Below, one piece after another: positions 5,591 to 13,384 of a stretch of DNA of 14,214 nt. Both the position numbers and the translations under genes were made by a program. The DNA is from Phormidesmis priestleyi (lineage in GTDB: Bacteria; Cyanobacteriota; Cyanobacteriia; Phormidesmidales; Phormidesmidaceae), in contig QBMP01000097.1 of NCBI GenBank assembly GCA_003242115.1, positions 1-14,214 of the forward strand, in the 5' to 3' direction. The notes beneath the pieces are model-generated. The model was not told the DNA's origin, made no database searches, and saw nothing but the letters and a program-made list of their open reading frames with translations. How positions within the stretch are numbered: position 1 is the stretch's first letter; every line of letters starts with the position of its first letter.

Positions 5591-6130
5591 ATGGCTCTAC
5601 TTATCCCTTCCTACCGCAGCAGCGCTAGCCGCATGACATCGGGAGAGCGGCGGCTAGCCCAGCGGCTCGAAGCTAATCTCCAAGATGACTACCTGCTCTG
5701 GTACGACGTGCCGGTCGGATCAAAGTGTCTACATCCCGACTTCATTTTGCTGCATCCATCACGCGGGCTGTTCGTGCTGGAGGTCAAAGATTGGAAGCTG
5801 GACACGATTCAATCTGTTGACCCTAGAAGTTTTGAGATCGCTACACCCTCTGGCGTCAAAAGGGTTGACAATCCCCTGTATCAGGTCAGAAATTATGCTT
5901 TGGCCATCTGCTCGCTGCTCGAAAAAGACAGCGCCCTTACTCAAGGCTCAGGCCGCTATAAAGGCAAGCTTTCGTGTCCCTATGCGTATGGTTTGGTGCT
6001 GCCCAACATCACCCGTCGCATGTTCGACTCGCAGCCAGCGCTAGCGCAAGTACTAGAGGCTCATCTGGTTATCTGCAAAGACGAGATGACCGAGCGCATT
6101 GATGCAGGAGCCTTTCAAGAACGGCTTTGA
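5591..6130 (+). CDS. NERD nuclease-related domain protein (5' half of a split NERD-helicase)
   Basis: This 179-residue frame is a NERD domain, a PD-(D/E)XK-type fold. SGERRLAQRLEANL (17-30) gives the helical Glu, HPDFILL (48-54) gives Asp50, LEVKDW (63-68) gives Glu64 and Lys66, and NPLYQVRNYA (94-103) gives the conserved Gln. In cyanobacteria such domains usually form the N-terminus of one protein with a UvrD/Rep-like helicase of about 600-700 residues. Here a TGA (6128-6130) ends the frame just after FQERL, where I recall Trp in intact relatives, and the helicase resumes in the same frame two codons later. The frame is otherwise clean. Either a TGG-to-TGA change has split the gene, or two proteins are made by termination and immediate reinitiation. 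The ATG at 5591 lacks a clear Shine-Dalgarno site. Confidence 0.85.
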   Translation: MALLIPSYRSSASRMTSGERRLAQRLEANLQDDYLLWYDVPVGSKCLHPDFILLHPSRGLFVLEVKDWKLDTIQSVDPRSFEIATPSGVKRVDNPLYQVRNYALAICSLLEKDSALTQGSGRYKGKLSCPYAYGLVLPNITRRMFDSQPALAQVLEAHLVICKDEMTERIDAGAFQERL

Positions 6131-6133
6131 TCG

Positions 6134-7447
6134 ATGAGCCACTACAACTTTGGCAAGACTTTGAATGCCGAGCAGGTTGATCGCATTCGTTGGCACCTCT
6201 ACCCAGAAATGCGGCTCTCTAGCAAGCAACTCTCGTTCTTTGACGATACGCCGGAAGAAACGCTACAAACGGCTATTCCGCAGGTGCTCAAAGTCATGGA
6301 CTTACAGCAGGAGCAGTTAGCCCGCAGCCTTGGCGACGGTCACCGCGTCATTCATGGGGTGGCAGGCAGCGGTAAAACACTGATTCTGGCCTATCGCTGT
6401 CAGCATCTTGCTCAAGCGGAGCAGTCAGTGCTGGTACTGTGCTTCAACGTAGCACTAGCATCCAAGCTGCGATCTCTGCTCGTGGCCAAAGAGATTAACT
6501 CACAGATTAGCGTGCGCCACTTCCACGGCTGGTGCATGGATATGCTCAAACGCTACAATCTGCCGAGCCCTGACGCCAAGCGCTACCGAGGATCTGACTA
6601 CGTTAGGGCGTTAGAGCAAGCCGTCATCACCGCTGTTGAGGCAGGGCATATTCCCAAGGGGCAGTACGGTGCGGTAATGGTCGATGAAGGCCATGACTTT
6701 GCGCCAGAGTGGCTGAAGCTCGTGGCTCAGATGGTGAATCCGGTTACTGACTCTCTGCTAGTGCTCTATGACGATGCGCAAAACCTCTACAGTAAGCGCT
6801 CTAGCCGTCAGTTCAGCTTCAAGACTTTGGGAATTAAAGCGCAGGGCAGAACCACGATCTTGAAGCTCAACTATCGCAATACGGCTCAGGTGCTGATGCT
6901 GGCGTATGAGTTTGCCAAAGAAGTGATGCAGCCTACGCTTATGCCGGACGAAGATATGCCGCCGATGGTAGAACCGAACAGCGCCGGTCGAGAAGGGCCG
7001 GTTCCGGTGCTGGTGAAGTGCGCCAACTATAAAGCCGAGGTCGCCTACATCATTGAGAGAGCCCAGCAGCTTCAGGAAAGAGGGATTCCTTGGCATGAGA
7101 TGGCGATTATCTATCGAGCCCACTGGATGGGGGAGGCCGCTTTTTCAGAGTTGCAACGGGCAGGTCTGCCGGTAGCTTGGCTCAATCAGAACAGCAGCAG
7201 CCGTAGTCTTGATCCGCTTAAGCCGAGCATCAAGCTAATGACCATGCATACGAGTAAAGGGCTAGAGTTTCCGGTGGTCTTCATCCCTGGATTGGGCTAT
7301 CTGCCGAGCGGCGCTGGCAAAATTGCGGATGAAGCTCGCCTGCTGTATGTGGCGATGACGAGAGCAATTGAGATATTGGTGCTGACGGGCGATCGCCGGT
7401 CTGTGTTTGTAGATCGACTCAAGGATGCGCTTGCAAAGGTTTGCTAG
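6134..7447 (+). CDS. UvrD/Rep-like superfamily 1 helicase (3' half of a split NERD-helicase)
   Basis: This 437-residue ATP-dependent SF1A helicase has all main motifs: GVAGSGKT (75-82, Walker A), VMVDEGHDF (181-189, Walker B), LLVLYDDAQNLY (208-219, motif III), LKLNYRNT (243-250, motif IV), TMHTSKGLEFPVVF (370-383, motif V) and EARLLYVAMTRA (400-411, motif VI). The roughly 60 residues before the Walker A look like the linker that normally joins a NERD domain to the helicase (QVDRIRWHLYPEMRL). The ATG at 6134 is therefore probably an internal Met of an ancestral single gene, placed three bases after the upstream TGA. It is compact compared with true UvrD (about 720) and belongs to the NERD-associated group, whose role is thought to be DNA repair or defence. 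The stop TAG at 7445-7447 is two bases from the convergent small ORF. Confidence 0.9.
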   Translation: MSHYNFGKTLNAEQVDRIRWHLYPEMRLSSKQLSFFDDTPEETLQTAIPQVLKVMDLQQEQLARSLGDGHRVIHGVAGSGKTLILAYRCQHLAQAEQSVLVLCFNVALASKLRSLLVAKEINSQISVRHFHGWCMDMLKRYNLPSPDAKRYRGSDYVRALEQAVITAVEAGHIPKGQYGAVMVDEGHDFAPEWLKLVAQMVNPVTDSLLVLYDDAQNLYSKRSSRQFSFKTLGIKAQGRTTILKLNYRNTAQVLMLAYEFAKEVMQPTLMPDEDMPPMVEPNSAGREGPVPVLVKCANYKAEVAYIIERAQQLQERGIPWHEMAIIYRAHWMGEAAFSELQRAGLPVAWLNQNSSSRSLDPLKPSIKLMTMHTSKGLEFPVVFIPGLGYLPSGAGKIADEARLLYVAMTRAIEILVLTGDRRSVFVDRLKDALAKVC

Positions 7448-8147: not shown

Positions 8148-10001
8148 TCATTGAAACTGTACCATTTCTCGTAGAACGGCCTGCCAGTCCTGCCGTTCTA
8201 GTGCAGTCAGCTCCAGAATCGTTGATTTACCATAATGGGTTTCTAGCTGAGACCTGACCTCTAAGGAAGACCATCGTATCGGTACTAAATACATAGCGAT
8301 CGCAGAGAGATCCGTCAGCAGCGTCTCTAAATCACCGTGCGGATTAGCAGTCAACTCATCTCGCAGGCCCTGAGGCTGCTTCAGAAGCCACTGACCCACT
8401 TCTATCAGCAATATAGGCTCACCTGAGAGTAAGAACTCTCTCATCCGTTGCAGAGCCTGCTCGTGGACGGGCTTGGGCATCTCAGGGCGAGGAGCCAGTT
8501 CAGCAGCAGCTTGAGCGCGAGCTTTCTGAATTTGAGCAAGCTGCTTCTTGATGCGATCGCGAATTGCTGCCACTGACTCTGAAGATTCTGTAATATTACT
8601 ACCTGGATCTGCTTGAGAAGGAGTTCGCAAATCCGAGAAAACCTGACCAGATAAAGGATTACTACCATTCTCTAGTAATAAGCTTGTGGGACTATTGAGG
8701 GCGGTCGCACCTTCAGTGCAGACGCCCTCAATAACCGTATTTTGAAGTTCGGAAACTTTTGGCTCTAAGCCAAGATCAATAGGATGCCACAGCTCGCGGT
8801 AACGATATAGAGATGCACCACCAATACTGTGATTCAGCAGTGCCTTAAATCGAGCGGTTGCCTTTTCTGGAAATGCACATTGGTCTTTTAAAGTCTGAAC
8901 AGCCTGCAATATTTTTTCTCGTGTTTCTTGAGCTTGCCGATCGTTCCAACTCATCTCAGATAAAATGGCATCAGGAATAGTTTTTACTGTTTTGTATTTG
9001 CCTTGAGAAGTACCATAGGGGAAATAATGGCTGCTTTCTACAGATTTAGCCCATTCACTAGCGCGATCTTCGATTTCATGTTGATGGCGGCACCAATCTC
9101 GATAGCCAGGTAGGGCTTGAGCAATTGAAACGATCTGTTGAACCAAAGCCTCGCCAGATAAAGGATCTCCACCTGAAGTGATATGGTGAAAAATATAGGT
9201 GCGCATAGCAATTCGACCTAGAAGTCGATTGGTTTGGCCGTAGTCAGTCCAACCTATTTCTATCTCAGTATCTAAATCACTTAGAAATTTGTGAGATTTA
9301 TTAGAGAGCTGGTAGCTGTATTGTTTTGTGCTTTTAAGAAGCTTTTTGAGATGGCGTACATCGAGATCATTTTTCTGCTGACAATGTTGCCACGATCGTA
9401 CAAAGCAACTCTGTGAATTACTAATCGGCCAAAACTCGTCATTAAGAATGTATGAACCCATCTGTAGAGGCAAACGATGAGCATTAAATAAACTAGGTTT
9501 TCCATCTGCACTATAGACCTTGGGATCAGGGAATAGCTCTAGATGGCCTGGCTTAAGCTTAAAGCCTGCATTCTCCAATAAAACAGAAACAGCTTTACTA
9601 ACCTTCCAGGAATTAAAGGACATGTTCAAAGGAAAGTAGAGATGTAGACCTTGGCTATCGCTAGAAGTACAAACGATATGTTCTACGATTCCTAACGGTT
9701 CTAAAGCTTCCAACAGTCGAGTAATGGATAACGGTACTTGAGTAGGATGGTATGGACTTTGCCAATCAATGTCTAAAAGAAAGTACTGCGTTTCTTGGTT
9801 AGGGCGAACACCAAAAAGGTACTTACCCTCCTCAATGGCTCTATCTGAGAGAGGATATCTGCTCTCTGTATACCATTTTGGGCGATCTCCAGGGTCTGGA
9901 TGCGGGGCATAAAGGAAATCATAGCGATGAGGAAATAGAGCCAGGAAGTCGTTACTGTTCTCCTGCACATATTGAAATTGACTGACAGCAGGCATAATCA
10001 T
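8148..10001 (-). CDS. Archaeo-eukaryotic primase (AEP)-like replication protein
   Basis: This is a 617-residue protein. The N-terminal 190 residues carry AEP landmarks in order: YFLLDIDW (73-80) with metal-binding Asp77 and Asp79 (the D-x-D motif); CTSSDSQGLHLYFPL (111-125) with the S-x-H-type motif ending in His120; LELFPDP (154-160) with Asp159 as third acidic residue; and HRLPLQMGSYIL (175-186), typical of AEP active-site edges. Such enzymes synthesise primers and often DNA for plasmid, phage or conflict systems. A helical region with NRLLGRIAMRTY (258-269) follows. HSIGGASLYRYRELWHP (391-407) resembles a helix-turn-helix of the TLYRHKELWHP type. A charged coiled-coil-like stretch (about 485-510) and a helical C-terminus complete the protein; no helicase domain is seen. 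The ATG at 10001 follows GAGGGGTGAG; Met3 is an alternative start. Upstream lies the iteron region, so this gene may be controlled from it. Two HIP1 sites lie near its 3' end. Confidence 0.8.
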   Translation of the reverse strand: MIMPAVSQFQYVQENSNDFLALFPHRYDFLYAPHPDPGDRPKWYTESRYPLSDRAIEEGKYLFGVRPNQETQYFLLDIDWQSPYHPTQVPLSITRLLEALEPLGIVEHIVCTSSDSQGLHLYFPLNMSFNSWKVSKAVSVLLENAGFKLKPGHLELFPDPKVYSADGKPSLFNAHRLPLQMGSYILNDEFWPISNSQSCFVRSWQHCQQKNDLDVRHLKKLLKSTKQYSYQLSNKSHKFLSDLDTEIEIGWTDYGQTNRLLGRIAMRTYIFHHITSGGDPLSGEALVQQIVSIAQALPGYRDWCRHQHEIEDRASEWAKSVESSHYFPYGTSQGKYKTVKTIPDAILSEMSWNDRQAQETREKILQAVQTLKDQCAFPEKATARFKALLNHSIGGASLYRYRELWHPIDLGLEPKVSELQNTVIEGVCTEGATALNSPTSLLLENGSNPLSGQVFSDLRTPSQADPGSNITESSESVAAIRDRIKKQLAQIQKARAQAAAELAPRPEMPKPVHEQALQRMREFLLSGEPILLIEVGQWLLKQPQGLRDELTANPHGDLETLLTDLSAIAMYLVPIRWSSLEVRSQLETHYGKSTILELTALERQDWQAVLREMVQFQ

Positions 10002-10909
10002 GATCGCTCACCCCTCGTTGAAGCGGATAAGCGATCAGCTGAATCAAAACAAATAAGACAAAACTGCACGGATAATCACCCTTAGCCCTTTCAGGAAGAA
10101 CTGCGGCGAAATTATGACAGTTAGGATGTAGCCACCATTATCACGAGGTTATTAATTTAAACTTATTAGCTGTCTTAGATCTTCAAAGTGACTGTTATCA
10201 AAGAGTTTTGAAAAGCTATAGTGATGCTATACGGCTATCTAGCGATTCGATTGGGGGTAGTTAGTGTACTAATTAGGAGCTGTTTGTCTTATGCCGAAAC
10301 GCTCGCCATTAAAGGCACATAAGCCTATTTGATAGACTTTTTTTAATAAGACAACGTTTTATTGAACCTCACATCCTTATCTCAAATTTTTCAATCAATT
10401 TAGAATAAATTCGCCATAACCTTTGTACCCAGGGCTTTTTCTGCACTTAAAGTCGATAAATTTTACGGCTAGTTAGATTAGTTTCAAAGTGAAACAACAC
10501 GGAGCTGTTTGTCTCAAATTATTAGATGGTTTGAGTGCAACTATTTACACAAGATTCAAAAATAACCAAAAAAAAAGGACGGTAATTAGGGCATTTCTTT
10601 ATATCAAGCAATAAAAAAGTGATTGCATACGGCTAATTTTGTCTTTAGAAAATAAATAAACTCAGAGCAATTTAAACAAATTTCTTCGCGTAGGATAGTA
10701 GTGCTATACGGACGCTCTTGTCTTTTTTCAGAGGAAGAAAGTGCCAATCGCTAAGCATCTGAAATATTGATACTAGACAAAGTAGAGGCGATAATGCGCG
10801 CTACAGGTGATGAGATACGGAGAAAGATGTATTTCGCTTACTCAACTTAAAAAGGCTAAATATGTTGGACGTACTCTATTTCGGCTCTAGTGGTAAGATA
10901 CGGAGAAAC

Positions 10910-10928
10910 CTGTCTCTTAATAAGACAG
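10910..10928. promoter_or_regulatory. Second iteron-linked palindrome CTGTCT...AGACAG
   Basis: In the iteron starting at 10889 the right half reads CTGTCTCTTA and is followed by TAAGACAG. It matches the palindrome at 11247 except for one extra central base and matching changes in the outermost pair (C and G instead of T and A). The paired change keeps the symmetry, which suggests selection for the palindrome itself. Confidence 0.55.
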
Positions 10929-11246
10929 TTACGAAATGCATAGATAATTGGCGATAGAGGTTGACGTCATCTGCATGAAGAGCCTCAGGGCCAGTTCATA
11001 TTGGTTTTTGACTATGTATAGATTTGCTCAAAAGAGAAAACCTACCCTAGGGTGAAGGCATACGGAGAAAATGCAGTCTTAATATTTAGGTTTTTGTACT
11101 TCGGTAGGCTTTTACGGACTTGCTCATCTAGAACCACTTTTTATCTAAGACCAAAGGTGATTAGATGCGGAGATTTGATTTACTTGAGACAAACAAGCAG
11201 CATGGCCTCACAAGCAACTAAATCAGGTGATTAGATGCGGAAAAAT

Positions 11247-11263
11247 TTGTCTTAATAAGACAA
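11247..11263. promoter_or_regulatory. Palindrome TTGTCTTA-A-TAAGACAA completing an iteron
   Basis: The right half of the iteron starting at 11226 is extended to a perfect 8+1+8 palindrome. This is the cleanest copy of the array and probably shows the preferred binding site of a dimeric DNA-binding protein. TAAGACAA halves alone occur at 10054-10061 and near 10347-10354. Confidence 0.6.
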
Positions 11264-11357
11264 CCATTCTGCCCTTGATATACCCCTGAAGGTAGGGAAG
11301 TGAGTCAATACGGATGTGCTTGTATCGGTGCCAAACGATTGATGTAAGGGCTCTGTG

Positions 11358-11371
11358 AGCTATTTTTAGCT
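11358..11371. terminator. Weak AT-rich hairpin downstream of the HTH gene
   Basis: AGCTA, four T, TAGCT, followed on the plus strand by a short T-run. It lies about 20 bases past the stop of the minus-strand 664-residue gene. The stem is only five base pairs and AT-rich, so terminator function is doubtful. Confidence 0.2.
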
Positions 11372-11389
11372 TTTGGTGATACAAACAGC

Positions 11390-13384
11390 TCAGGATTTTA
11401 TTCTTAAAAGCTTGCGAATCTTGGGCTCTAGATCCTCAGTAATTTGTCTGTCTCCACGCTCTATTTTGCCAATGTAGTCAGAGCTAATTCCTAGAAAGCC
11501 AGCCAGTTCCTTTCTAGACCAGCTGCGTTCTTTTCTGCCTAGCTTAATCATCTCTCCCGTCAAAATATCGTATGTTGGTTCGGTGGCTACTAATGCTTTC
11601 TGGGGTTTTGGACTTTTAAGCTTAGAAAGCATTACAGGAATAGGATGCGGGGGTTTAATATTTAACTTAGCTCGCAGCAGCCGTTCGATAAGCTTAACTT
11701 TGCGCCAGTCTTTTGGTTTTGCCGCTTCGCTATTAGGGCGTATCCAGTCTGGGTACGTTTCAGGATCGTATTCAATTTCCCAGCCCAATTCTGTAAGAAG
11801 AGTCAGCGATTTATCCCACCGCTTTCTCAAATCGCGAGCTTTATACTTATCGATGAGTGCACTATTAATATCTGGCTTAGCAATAACCTCTTCAAGCAGA
11901 TTAACAACGGTGTACTCGTAAGGGTTCTGATTTCTGGCTCTAATGCGCGCATCGAGCGTAAGCTGAATGGCTAAGCGTAGCGCTAGTTCATTATGATAAG
12001 GATCGATAGTCAAGATATCTCTTGCTAAGTAGCCAAACTGATGAAGGGCTTCTTTTGCTCGGTTACCAGCTCGGTTGAGAAAATGCTTAGTCCAACCCCC
12101 TGGACTAACGGTGATGTAGATTTCTTCTGGCTTCTCGATTTTATTCGTCGCTAAATCGATTTGGCCGTGCGAATCGATGAGTACATCCCACATTCGACCG
12201 ACTGGCATACTCGCGTCCACTTTCCGTTTGCCACGTCCTTCTATCCAGACAGACTTCACCATTAGGCAAGATAAGGCAAAAGCTGCGGCTGCAACTGTAT
12301 TACGTTTTTCTACAAGGCCAGTATTATGATTACGATCCCAACCTAAAAGTGTGACAACATCTGTAGCCTTGAGCGTAAACGAGCTTGTCCAGGGTTCACC
12401 TTCTACCATCGTTTTGGCTGCAAAAATTAGCTGTAGCTTGACCGTATCAAACCCAAACTTATCAATGATCTGCTCAGCAGCTTCCCAGGGCAATAGTGCA
12501 ATATCTCCTGGATTAGTAATATAGTGCTCAATGAAATTGCCTGGATTGCCCTTACTCTGATATTGAAAAACCGCCAGGTTGTCGTCGCTACGCTGCCAAA
12601 GCTCAGGGCGCAGTTGAGCTTTGATGCTGCTTGCAATCGGAATTGACGTAGGGATAGGAAAAACCTGCTCAAGTGCTAGGTTTGTGTATACCGCAGAGAG
12701 CGGGCGCTGCCTAAGTCCTAGAAGCTGTTCTAAGTCTTGTAGAGAGCAAGCAGGTAAATTTAAACCCTCAACAATTATCTGAGTAATTTCCTGACAGTAA
12801 ATTTGACCTAAAATCTCAAGCTTGTCGTTAAATTCATCAGCATCGGGGTGATTTAGATAAGCGCCAATTGCCTTCTTGAGTTCTACTACTGCTAGCGTTT
12901 CAAGATACCCCCCCTCATGCTCAGCTTCTATCTCTTCAAGTGCCCAAACAATCAAGTTCGATCCGATTGCTTTGACGAACTCATCTTGAAACCCCTGGCG
13001 CTCAAAAAATGCAAGAAGTGCTTCTTTTAAGTGCCCTTTTACAAGGGCCTCATCTAGGGAAATATCAATACTTTGTCCGGTCTTTGTCTTTTTAGTCGCA
13101 TGACTTAGAACTCGATAATGTGACTGATTAAGATCTAACGCCTCAATCCCTTCTCTTTCTACAGTCAGTTCAACTTTATGCCTGTGAATTTTCACTAGAT
13201 GTTCATAAAGCTGTAGCGTTATGAGATCTGGCAAGCTAGACCGCTCTTGAATAGTTCCTGTGAGATGATGTAAATATTCAGACGTTAAGATTTCATTGAT
13301 TAATTGCGCCCAGCGGTAGCCTTTTTCACCCAGCGGCGTGGGCGAAAAGTCATAAATGCTATTTGAAGGTTGGCTATCGCGCAT
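11390..13384 (-). CDS. Large protein with C-terminal XRE helix-turn-helix, candidate replication initiator
   Basis: This 664-residue cytoplasmic protein has no signal peptide or membrane segment. The C-terminal ~55 residues form a classic XRE helix-turn-helix: LTGEMIKLGRKERSWSRKEL and AGFLGISSDYIGKIERGDRQ (608-647). The central part (about 290-480) contains TDVVTLLGWDRNHN (341-354), VEKRNTVAAAAFALSCL (358-374) and MVKSVWIEG (375-383). These helix-strand patterns look like the winged-helix regions of plasmid Rep proteins, though I cannot assign a Pfam family. The N-terminal half is mostly helical and acidic. The gene sits beside the iteron region, with the primase-like gene beyond it on the same strand; this context and the DNA-binding domain support an initiator or iteron-binding role. 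The ATG at 13384 has no Shine-Dalgarno site. A weak promoter (TTGACC, 18 bases, TAAAAG) lies upstream. No HIP1 sites occur in the gene. Confidence 0.75.
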   Translation of the reverse strand: MRDSQPSNSIYDFSPTPLGEKGYRWAQLINEILTSEYLHHLTGTIQERSSLPDLITLQLYEHLVKIHRHKVELTVEREGIEALDLNQSHYRVLSHATKKTKTGQSIDISLDEALVKGHLKEALLAFFERQGFQDEFVKAIGSNLIVWALEEIEAEHEGGYLETLAVVELKKAIGAYLNHPDADEFNDKLEILGQIYCQEITQIIVEGLNLPACSLQDLEQLLGLRQRPLSAVYTNLALEQVFPIPTSIPIASSIKAQLRPELWQRSDDNLAVFQYQSKGNPGNFIEHYITNPGDIALLPWEAAEQIIDKFGFDTVKLQLIFAAKTMVEGEPWTSSFTLKATDVVTLLGWDRNHNTGLVEKRNTVAAAAFALSCLMVKSVWIEGRGKRKVDASMPVGRMWDVLIDSHGQIDLATNKIEKPEEIYITVSPGGWTKHFLNRAGNRAKEALHQFGYLARDILTIDPYHNELALRLAIQLTLDARIRARNQNPYEYTVVNLLEEVIAKPDINSALIDKYKARDLRKRWDKSLTLLTELGWEIEYDPETYPDWIRPNSEAAKPKDWRKVKLIERLLRAKLNIKPPHPIPVMLSKLKSPKPQKALVATEPTYDILTGEMIKLGRKERSWSRKELAGFLGISSDYIGKIERGDRQITEDLEPKIRKLLRIKS

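Follow-up and report, generated by a model that had tools for sequence, protein, structure and literature searches.

How the large plasmids of cyanobacteria choose and control their replication origins is largely an open question. Passages of one study (PMC10899382) describe the information on Rep proteins of cyanobacterial plasmids as limited and state that, among four large Synechocystis plasmids, a Rep was known for pSYSA only before the two of pSYSX. The question arises again at a locus of Phormidesmis priestleyi, in contig QBMP01000097.1, whose entire 14,214 bp (one of the 439 contigs of a 4.78-Mb assembly) make up the window analysed here. What are the repeats for that lie in a 1,388-bp non-coding gap between two minus-strand genes, and which protein reads them? 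The upstream gene (11390-13384) encodes a protein of 664 amino acids (aa), which we propose as the initiator, with a helical N-terminal part, two predicted winged helices (about residues 245-578) and a C-terminal helix-turn-helix (HTH) of XRE/Cro type (residues 613-651). The downstream gene (8148-10001) encodes its partner, a 617-aa protein with a predicted AEP Prim-Pol fold, proposed to be the primase/polymerase of the replicon. Both reading frames are intact. Positions 10149-11326 are very probably the replication origin, together with incompatibility or copy-control sites, of an element that is or derives from a cyanobacterial plasmid, and the product of 11390-13384 is very probably the protein that recognises it: the repeats are composite, they have been kept in relatives together with the gene pair, and their bases covary with separate segments of that product.

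Composite repeats in the intergenic gap

The first-pass annotation of this DNA had described an iteron array in which at least 11 copies of a left half were each followed, after exactly six bases, by TTGTCTT. The bipartite repeat with its fixed six-base gap, in non-coding DNA, stands: the composite pattern RGTGATNNNATACGGNNNNNNTTGTCTT, at up to three mismatches, matched seven times in the window, always on the plus strand and always within the array, against a mean of 0.01 in shuffled sequence, and none of 200 shuffles reached seven. The count of complete copies does not stand, as there are 10 clear left halves and five cores whose right half has at most one mismatch. In the 4.78-Mb genome the same pattern matched 10 times, with seven matches in the array and the remaining three, each at three mismatches, on other contigs; the reversed control pattern matched once. 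On these counts we rejected a chance motif as well as one scattered over the genome, a check that the annotation had itself proposed.

The clear left halves (iteron cores with at most two mismatches to the core pattern) share one orientation and start at 10220, 10488, 10618, 10697, 10806, 10889, 11051, 11156, 11226 and 11299. A core at 11198, also with two mismatches, is on the opposite strand. Six further core matches have three mismatches, and two of them (10241 and 10263) were counted as degenerate copies because they are spaced 21-22 bp from 10220 and from each other; the other four lie near the array. At exactly six bases, a right half with no more than one mismatch was found for five cores (10263, 10488, 10618, 10697 and 11226) and one with two mismatches for three (10806, 10889 and 11299), while cores 10220, 11051 and 11156 have no right half at that distance.

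Dispersed composite units are found on the plus strand at 10488-10515 (GTGAA..CACGG N6 TTGTCTC, three mismatches), 10618-10645 (a perfect match), 10697-10724 (two mismatches), 10806-10833 (two mismatches, with a weak right half ATGTATT) and 11299-11326 (three mismatches, with a weak right half TTGTATC). The annotation had noted right halves that extend into a palindrome, and this we could confirm: in the plus-strand unit at 11226-11263, matched by both the composite and the core patterns, the right half forms the palindrome TTGTCTTAATAAGACAA (11247-11263), and in that at 10889-10927, likewise on the plus strand, it runs into a near-copy, the near-palindrome TGTCTCTTAATAAGACA (10911-10927). Left halves matching the core pattern also occur on the plus strand at 11051-11065, with no right half at six bases, and at 11156-11170, where the only half-site is an opposite-facing GAGACAA at 11186-11192.

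Near the downstream gene, and absent from the annotation, a tandem block occupies 10220-10290 on the minus strand; it consists of a half-site AAGACAA (10284-10290) and three cores (10263-10277, 10241-10255 and 10220-10234) placed 21-22 bp apart, two of which are degenerate. On the same strand, at 10149-10176, a half-site AAGACAG is followed by an AT-rich tract that we propose as the unwinding region, and a half-site is also present at 10055-10061, just before the downstream gene. The gap as a whole is AT-rich, with a GC content of 0.34-0.40 in 500-bp windows against 0.39-0.56 in the rest of the window. A 15-nt inverted repeat, GAGCTGTTTGTCTCA, 93% complementary, was seen between 10502-10516 and 11377-11391, where it pairs one unit with the end of the gap at the initiator stop codon.

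Relatives and protein-site covariation

The relatives of the window sequence are cyanobacterial. When annotated plasmids were searched by tblastn, the 664-aa protein was found in 46 records and the 617-aa protein in 66, cyanobacterial among the matches listed, and the best clusters of close relatives are 96% and 91% identical. On plasmid1 of Leptolyngbya NIES-3755 and on two Acaryochloris plasmids, the motif likewise occurs in a gap between these two genes; in Acaryochloris it is carried in 78-79-bp repeats. A scan of genome contigs covered the best 80 of 102 relatives. Among the first 20, we found two to nine units in a single orientation downstream of the initiator gene in 15, and none with the reversed control; L053 has two units downstream and three more upstream of the initiator, the latter facing a divergent minus-strand Prim-Pol gene. 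A replication-type gene is present in 12 of the 15 array-bearing relatives, the flank being too short in the other three, and the five relatives without an array (L037, L042, L045, L046 and L051) are also without a replication-type gene downstream.

Tandem iterons occur in the wider family as well. We scanned 95 downstream regions, near-duplicates included (L019 and L060 are the same plasmid), for self-similarity at lags of 15 to 45, with one mononucleotide shuffle per region. At least 18 of 22 bases were identical in 54 regions at lag 22, in 39 at lag 44 and in eight at lag 21, and in none of the shuffled regions; the window falls outside the 54 because its cores are too diverged for the lag test. 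With the core pattern at up to three mismatches, a triple of cores 20-23 bp apart was found in 13 of the 15 gaps of its clade, the window included, against 0.09 expected from 100 dinucleotide-preserving shuffles per gap. In 12 of the gaps the triple is found at 0.79-0.89 of the gap length, and in L047 at 0.61; a core pair is present in L052, and neither pair nor triple in L049. Core pairs alone, which occur in 14 of the 15 gaps against 3.1 expected, are weak evidence, and the triples strong. The half-site with its AT tract, in a strict pattern, recurs in four of the 15 (the window, two Acaryochloris gaps, L014/L018 and L017, and L054). In the wider family the typical order is half-site, six bases, core and further cores at 22-bp steps, and the 52 units obtained from the half-site-to-core reading all have T at base 6 and A at base 13, so that half-site and core always stand the same distance apart. 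The conserved array and gene pair, together with these 22-bp tandem iterons, support the annotation's description of an iteron array.

Three relatives deserve separate mention. L099 (JAAUUT010000093.1), labelled Candidatus Gracilibacteria, has a cyanobacterial-type initiator and 22-bp iterons, which reflects either a binning error or a wider range. The 11.4-Mb chromosome of Calothrix sp. PCC 7716 (L110) also carries the module, again with 22-bp iterons. On plasmid pA of Kovacikia minuta (L016) the initiator frame (42355-44181) stops early, before the HTH domain, and two units at up to five mismatches lie behind it (44481-45900).

Sequence and covariation show a match between one protein family and its site in three places, each with its own protein segment and its own block: the TTGTCTT half-site is matched by the XRE helix, the ATACGG block by putative winged helix 1 and the GTGAT block by putative winged helix 2. 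The recognition helix of the C-terminal HTH is predicted at residues 635-643 (codons 11456-11482, minus strand). Its third residue, 636 in the window protein, where it is D, covaries with the half-site in relatives. In the SQ[K/R/N] group, K or R at 636 occurs with AGAACAA and N with AAAACAA; 48 of 52 loci agree, and the four that disagree (three K with A, one N with G) each have a single half-site behind them, two of the 54 K/R/N loci being without a half-site call. When the last 70 residues were excluded from the tree, there were seven independent pairs, of which a mean of 6.5 went the same way and none the opposite way (median p 0.0156). Covariation at HTH residue 7 (K with G, 19 of 19) was not counted as independent, being one change on the tree.

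For the core, 69 loci were compared residue by base in 16,456 tests. These drew on well-filled columns (letters in 60 rows or more), on splits that set apart five rows or more and on five or more changes on the tree; 28 of the tests had an absolute phi of at least 0.85, all of them in residues 352-359, with core bases 1-3, or in residues 513-517, with bases 9, 11, 12 and 14; unfiltered, thinly filled columns with few changes score high too. Residues 352-359 (codons 12308-12331, minus strand) form the turn and the start of the putative recognition helix of winged helix 1, a helix placed at 357-372 in the predicted model, and covary with the ATACGG block, with a phi of 1.00 for residue 352 with base 1 and 353 with base 2. 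Residues 513-517 (codons 11834-11848, minus strand), at the start of the putative recognition helix of winged helix 2 (predicted at 513-532), covary with bases 11, 12 and 14 of the GTGAT block. Counted as independent pairs, none of which went the opposite way, 513F occurs with T at base 14 (7.8 pairs the same way, p 0.0078), 514R with G at base 12 (phi 1.00, seven pairs, p 0.0156), 515R with G at base 11 (6.7 pairs, p 0.0156), 352N/R with C/T at base 1 (five pairs, p 0.0625), 353H with C at base 2 (3.8 of four pairs, p 0.125) and 354K with A at base 3 (1.8 of three pairs, p 0.5).

Beyond the 69 loci there were 22 sequences, 21 relatives and a paralogue on contig C24 of the same genome, nine of them with a unit readable by eye. 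The 352/353 rule is kept in seven of the nine (L010, L056, L086, L091, L099 and, with one extra base in the gap, L011 and the C24 paralogue) and fails in L025 and L109 (R352, K353, CCG), while the 514 rule is kept in all seven in which base 12 was read (L010, L025, L056, L086, L091, L099 and L109). The core test took in 69 of 72 units, 21 regions having yielded none; the trees exclude proteins of 430 aa or less, the HTH alignment omits L058, which has no HTH, and L016 was left out of all covariation. Different segments of one protein covarying with different blocks, and its RctB-like predicted fold, support the earlier suggestion that one protein contacts both halves, and the covariation indicates that the initiator probably binds the direct repeats.

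Partner genes and possible sister replicons

A same-strand replication-type gene lies within 3.3 kb in 60 of the 80 loci; 11 have none, and in nine the flank is too short. The partner queries took in genes found downstream at ten plasmid loci, so that this count measures the recurrence of those types. The partners differ from locus to locus and comprise AEP-only proteins like that of the window, CyRepX1-like proteins (L024, and L021 and L025 with PriCT_2) and a DUF3854 protein (L019). In passages of the respective studies, CyRepX1 and CyRepX2 are reported to confer autonomous replication (PMC10899382) and CyRepA to carry DUF3854 (PMC10079941). The CyRepX1-like and DUF3854 partners thus link, at loci other than the window, the position of the array with proteins proven to act in replication. 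We rejected the window's AEP protein as a CyRepX member (similarity to CyRepX1 at E 6.7), and it is not placed in CyRepA, since neither DUF3854 nor any other Pfam family matched it.

Contig C24 of the same genome carries an initiator 28% identical to that of the window and a Prim-Pol gene 61% identical, divergent around an array whose half-site is GATTACAA and whose cores, of CTAGA type, stand at distances of 63, 66 and 23 bp. Its HTH helix, SQGLISM, is identical to that of L011 (Leptolyngbya), whose half-site is also GATTACAA. Such differing codes would let the window and C24 systems coexist in one cell. Five more relatives of the Prim-Pol protein, at 33-61% identity, are encoded in the genome, on contigs C24, C250, C69, C68 and C203 (L030-L034), and the strain seems to carry several related replicons. 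Another relative (H66, 30.5% over query residues 19-445) is encoded at 15959-17272 of NC_005231.1, a 44,343-bp plasmid of Synechocystis PCC 6803 that by its size we take to be pSYSG. The abstract of PMC10899382 gives no Rep for pSYSG, and H66 is a candidate Rep of that plasmid.

The array as a probable origin, rival readings and known systems

From the architecture, conservation and covariation described above, and from the predicted folds, we infer how such an origin might work. A monomer would lie along each composite unit, and the fixed gap would keep its winged helices in register with its XRE domain along a single face of the DNA. The tandem cores at 10220-10277, starting at a half-site, would load several initiator copies beside the AT-rich tract at 10149-10176, which would open, and the AEP Prim-Pol product of 8148-10001 would prime or copy DNA from the opened tract. 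By analogy with the regulatory half of RctB's ori2 and with iteron plasmids, as parts of PMC6090056 and PMC4980987 present them, the dispersed units and HTH palindromes may titrate, pair (handcuff) or repress.

Some results lend no support to an origin here. The GC-skew check proposed in the annotation gave a cumulative minimum near 4.5 kb, outside the array, so that skew does not mark the origin. The exact DnaA box TTWTNCACA is absent from 10001-11389, where three one-mismatch versions occur, and a DnaA-box-based origin was rejected on this ground; in iteron-type plasmid origins such boxes are frequent without being universal. Neither protein received a Rep name from Pfam, NCBIfam or PHROGs; in Pfam, at E <= 0.1, the 664-aa protein matched HTH families only and hence no curated Rep family.

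It is possible, if rather unlikely, that the module is a relic, an integrated plasmid within the chromosome that no longer fires. The 14,214-bp contig has ordinary genes, the absence of a terminal overlap led us to reject a circular contig, the tandem block is degenerate, and a related module does lie on the Calothrix chromosome; however, both reading frames are intact, close relatives exist (the clusters at 96% and 91% identity) and the array has been kept in register. Less probable still is transcriptional control, with replication starting elsewhere: the XRE protein would act as a repressor of both its own gene and the Prim-Pol gene, for which the repeats would serve as operators. A C-terminal HTH of Cro/C1 type, half-sites forming a 17-bp palindrome and the half-site just before the downstream gene would suit an operator region, but ten clear cores over 1.1 kb, tandem core triples, 22-bp iterons in relatives, two further DNA-reading segments in the same protein with its RctB-like fold, and recurrent pairing with different types of replication enzyme all argue for more than that; autoregulation may exist alongside the origin role. 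A partition site (centromere) whose repeats are bound by a ParB-type protein is hardly credible, even if some relatives have ParA/ParB genes close to the initiator, as none of the nine window proteins scanned against Pfam matched ParA or ParB and the site bases covary with the XRE protein, itself without a ParB match.

The replication origin that we favour resembles that of Vibrio chromosome 2, in that the predicted fold of residues 245-578 matches domains 2-3 of RctB, as expected of a two-winged-helix initiator, and 664 aa is near the size of RctB. According to parts of PMC6090056, RctB has 658 aa, four domains and three HTH motifs, so that three DNA-reading parts are not without precedent, and in the ori2 of about 900 bp the iterons are evenly spaced and accompanied by an AT-rich region and by distinct control sites. 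Sequence homology to RctB was not detected in a profile search of PDB chains, in which the best 60 of 64 matches concerned the HTH part and none was RctB. RctB lacks the C-terminal XRE domain, and the window has a partner Prim-Pol gene; the second site of ori2 is a free-standing 39-mer, whereas in the window a fixed gap couples the second site to the iteron, and there is no GATC in the window's core consensus.

IncQ plasmids such as RSF1010 combine an iteron-binding RepC with an AEP primase, RepB'; an iteron-binding protein and an AEP primase would also be combined here, and RepB' is among the fold matches of the 617-aa protein. In iteron theta plasmids the repeats are about 20 bp long. Their layout (F RepE, RK2 TrfA, pPS10 RepA), as described in parts of PMC4980987, is that of a winged-helix initiator bound to direct repeats adjoining an unwinding region, and is like the one proposed for the window, which differs by its third DNA-reading domain, its dispersed units and the lack of an exact DnaA box and of a Pfam Rep match. 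RepE, TrfA and RepA were not among the best 50 fold matches of the initiator, which excludes nothing. Relatives of CyRepX1/X2 (pSYSX) and CyRepA1/A2 serve as downstream partners of the same initiator family elsewhere, but the window's partner has no detectable CyRepX1 similarity and no DUF3854. The words "iteron" and "helix-turn-helix" are absent from the main text of PMC10899382 and PMC10079941. No description of the initiator or the motif was found in the open-licence papers searched (subscription journals were unchecked), in agreement with the annotation, which did not recognise the motif from a described cyanobacterial replicon. Iteron origins are an established type, from which this one would be set apart by an initiator with an extra XRE domain, linked to the iteron across an unvarying gap.

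We also incline, by a small step beyond even chances, to a wider view, that of a cyanobacteria-wide, undescribed origin-recognition cassette. One initiator would read a three-block site through two RctB-like winged helices and an XRE domain, with a readable contact code whose shifts make plasmids of the same cell compatible, and it would be interchangeable with at least three kinds of replicase (AEP-only, CyRepX-like and DUF3854-helicase). If this is true, an initiator family and its sites would be identified for dozens of plasmids and contigs, the residue-to-base code would predict origin and compatibility from sequence, and the pattern suggests that plasmids swap their replicase yet keep their origin reader. 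It would also provide a natural case in which a second DNA-binding domain, at a gap that does not vary, anchors an initiator to its iteron, and in which copy control and polarity are directly testable.

Elsewhere in the window, a NERD-domain protein is encoded at 5591-7447 on the plus strand with a UvrD-like helicase directly after it, possibly a defence or plasmid-processing pair.
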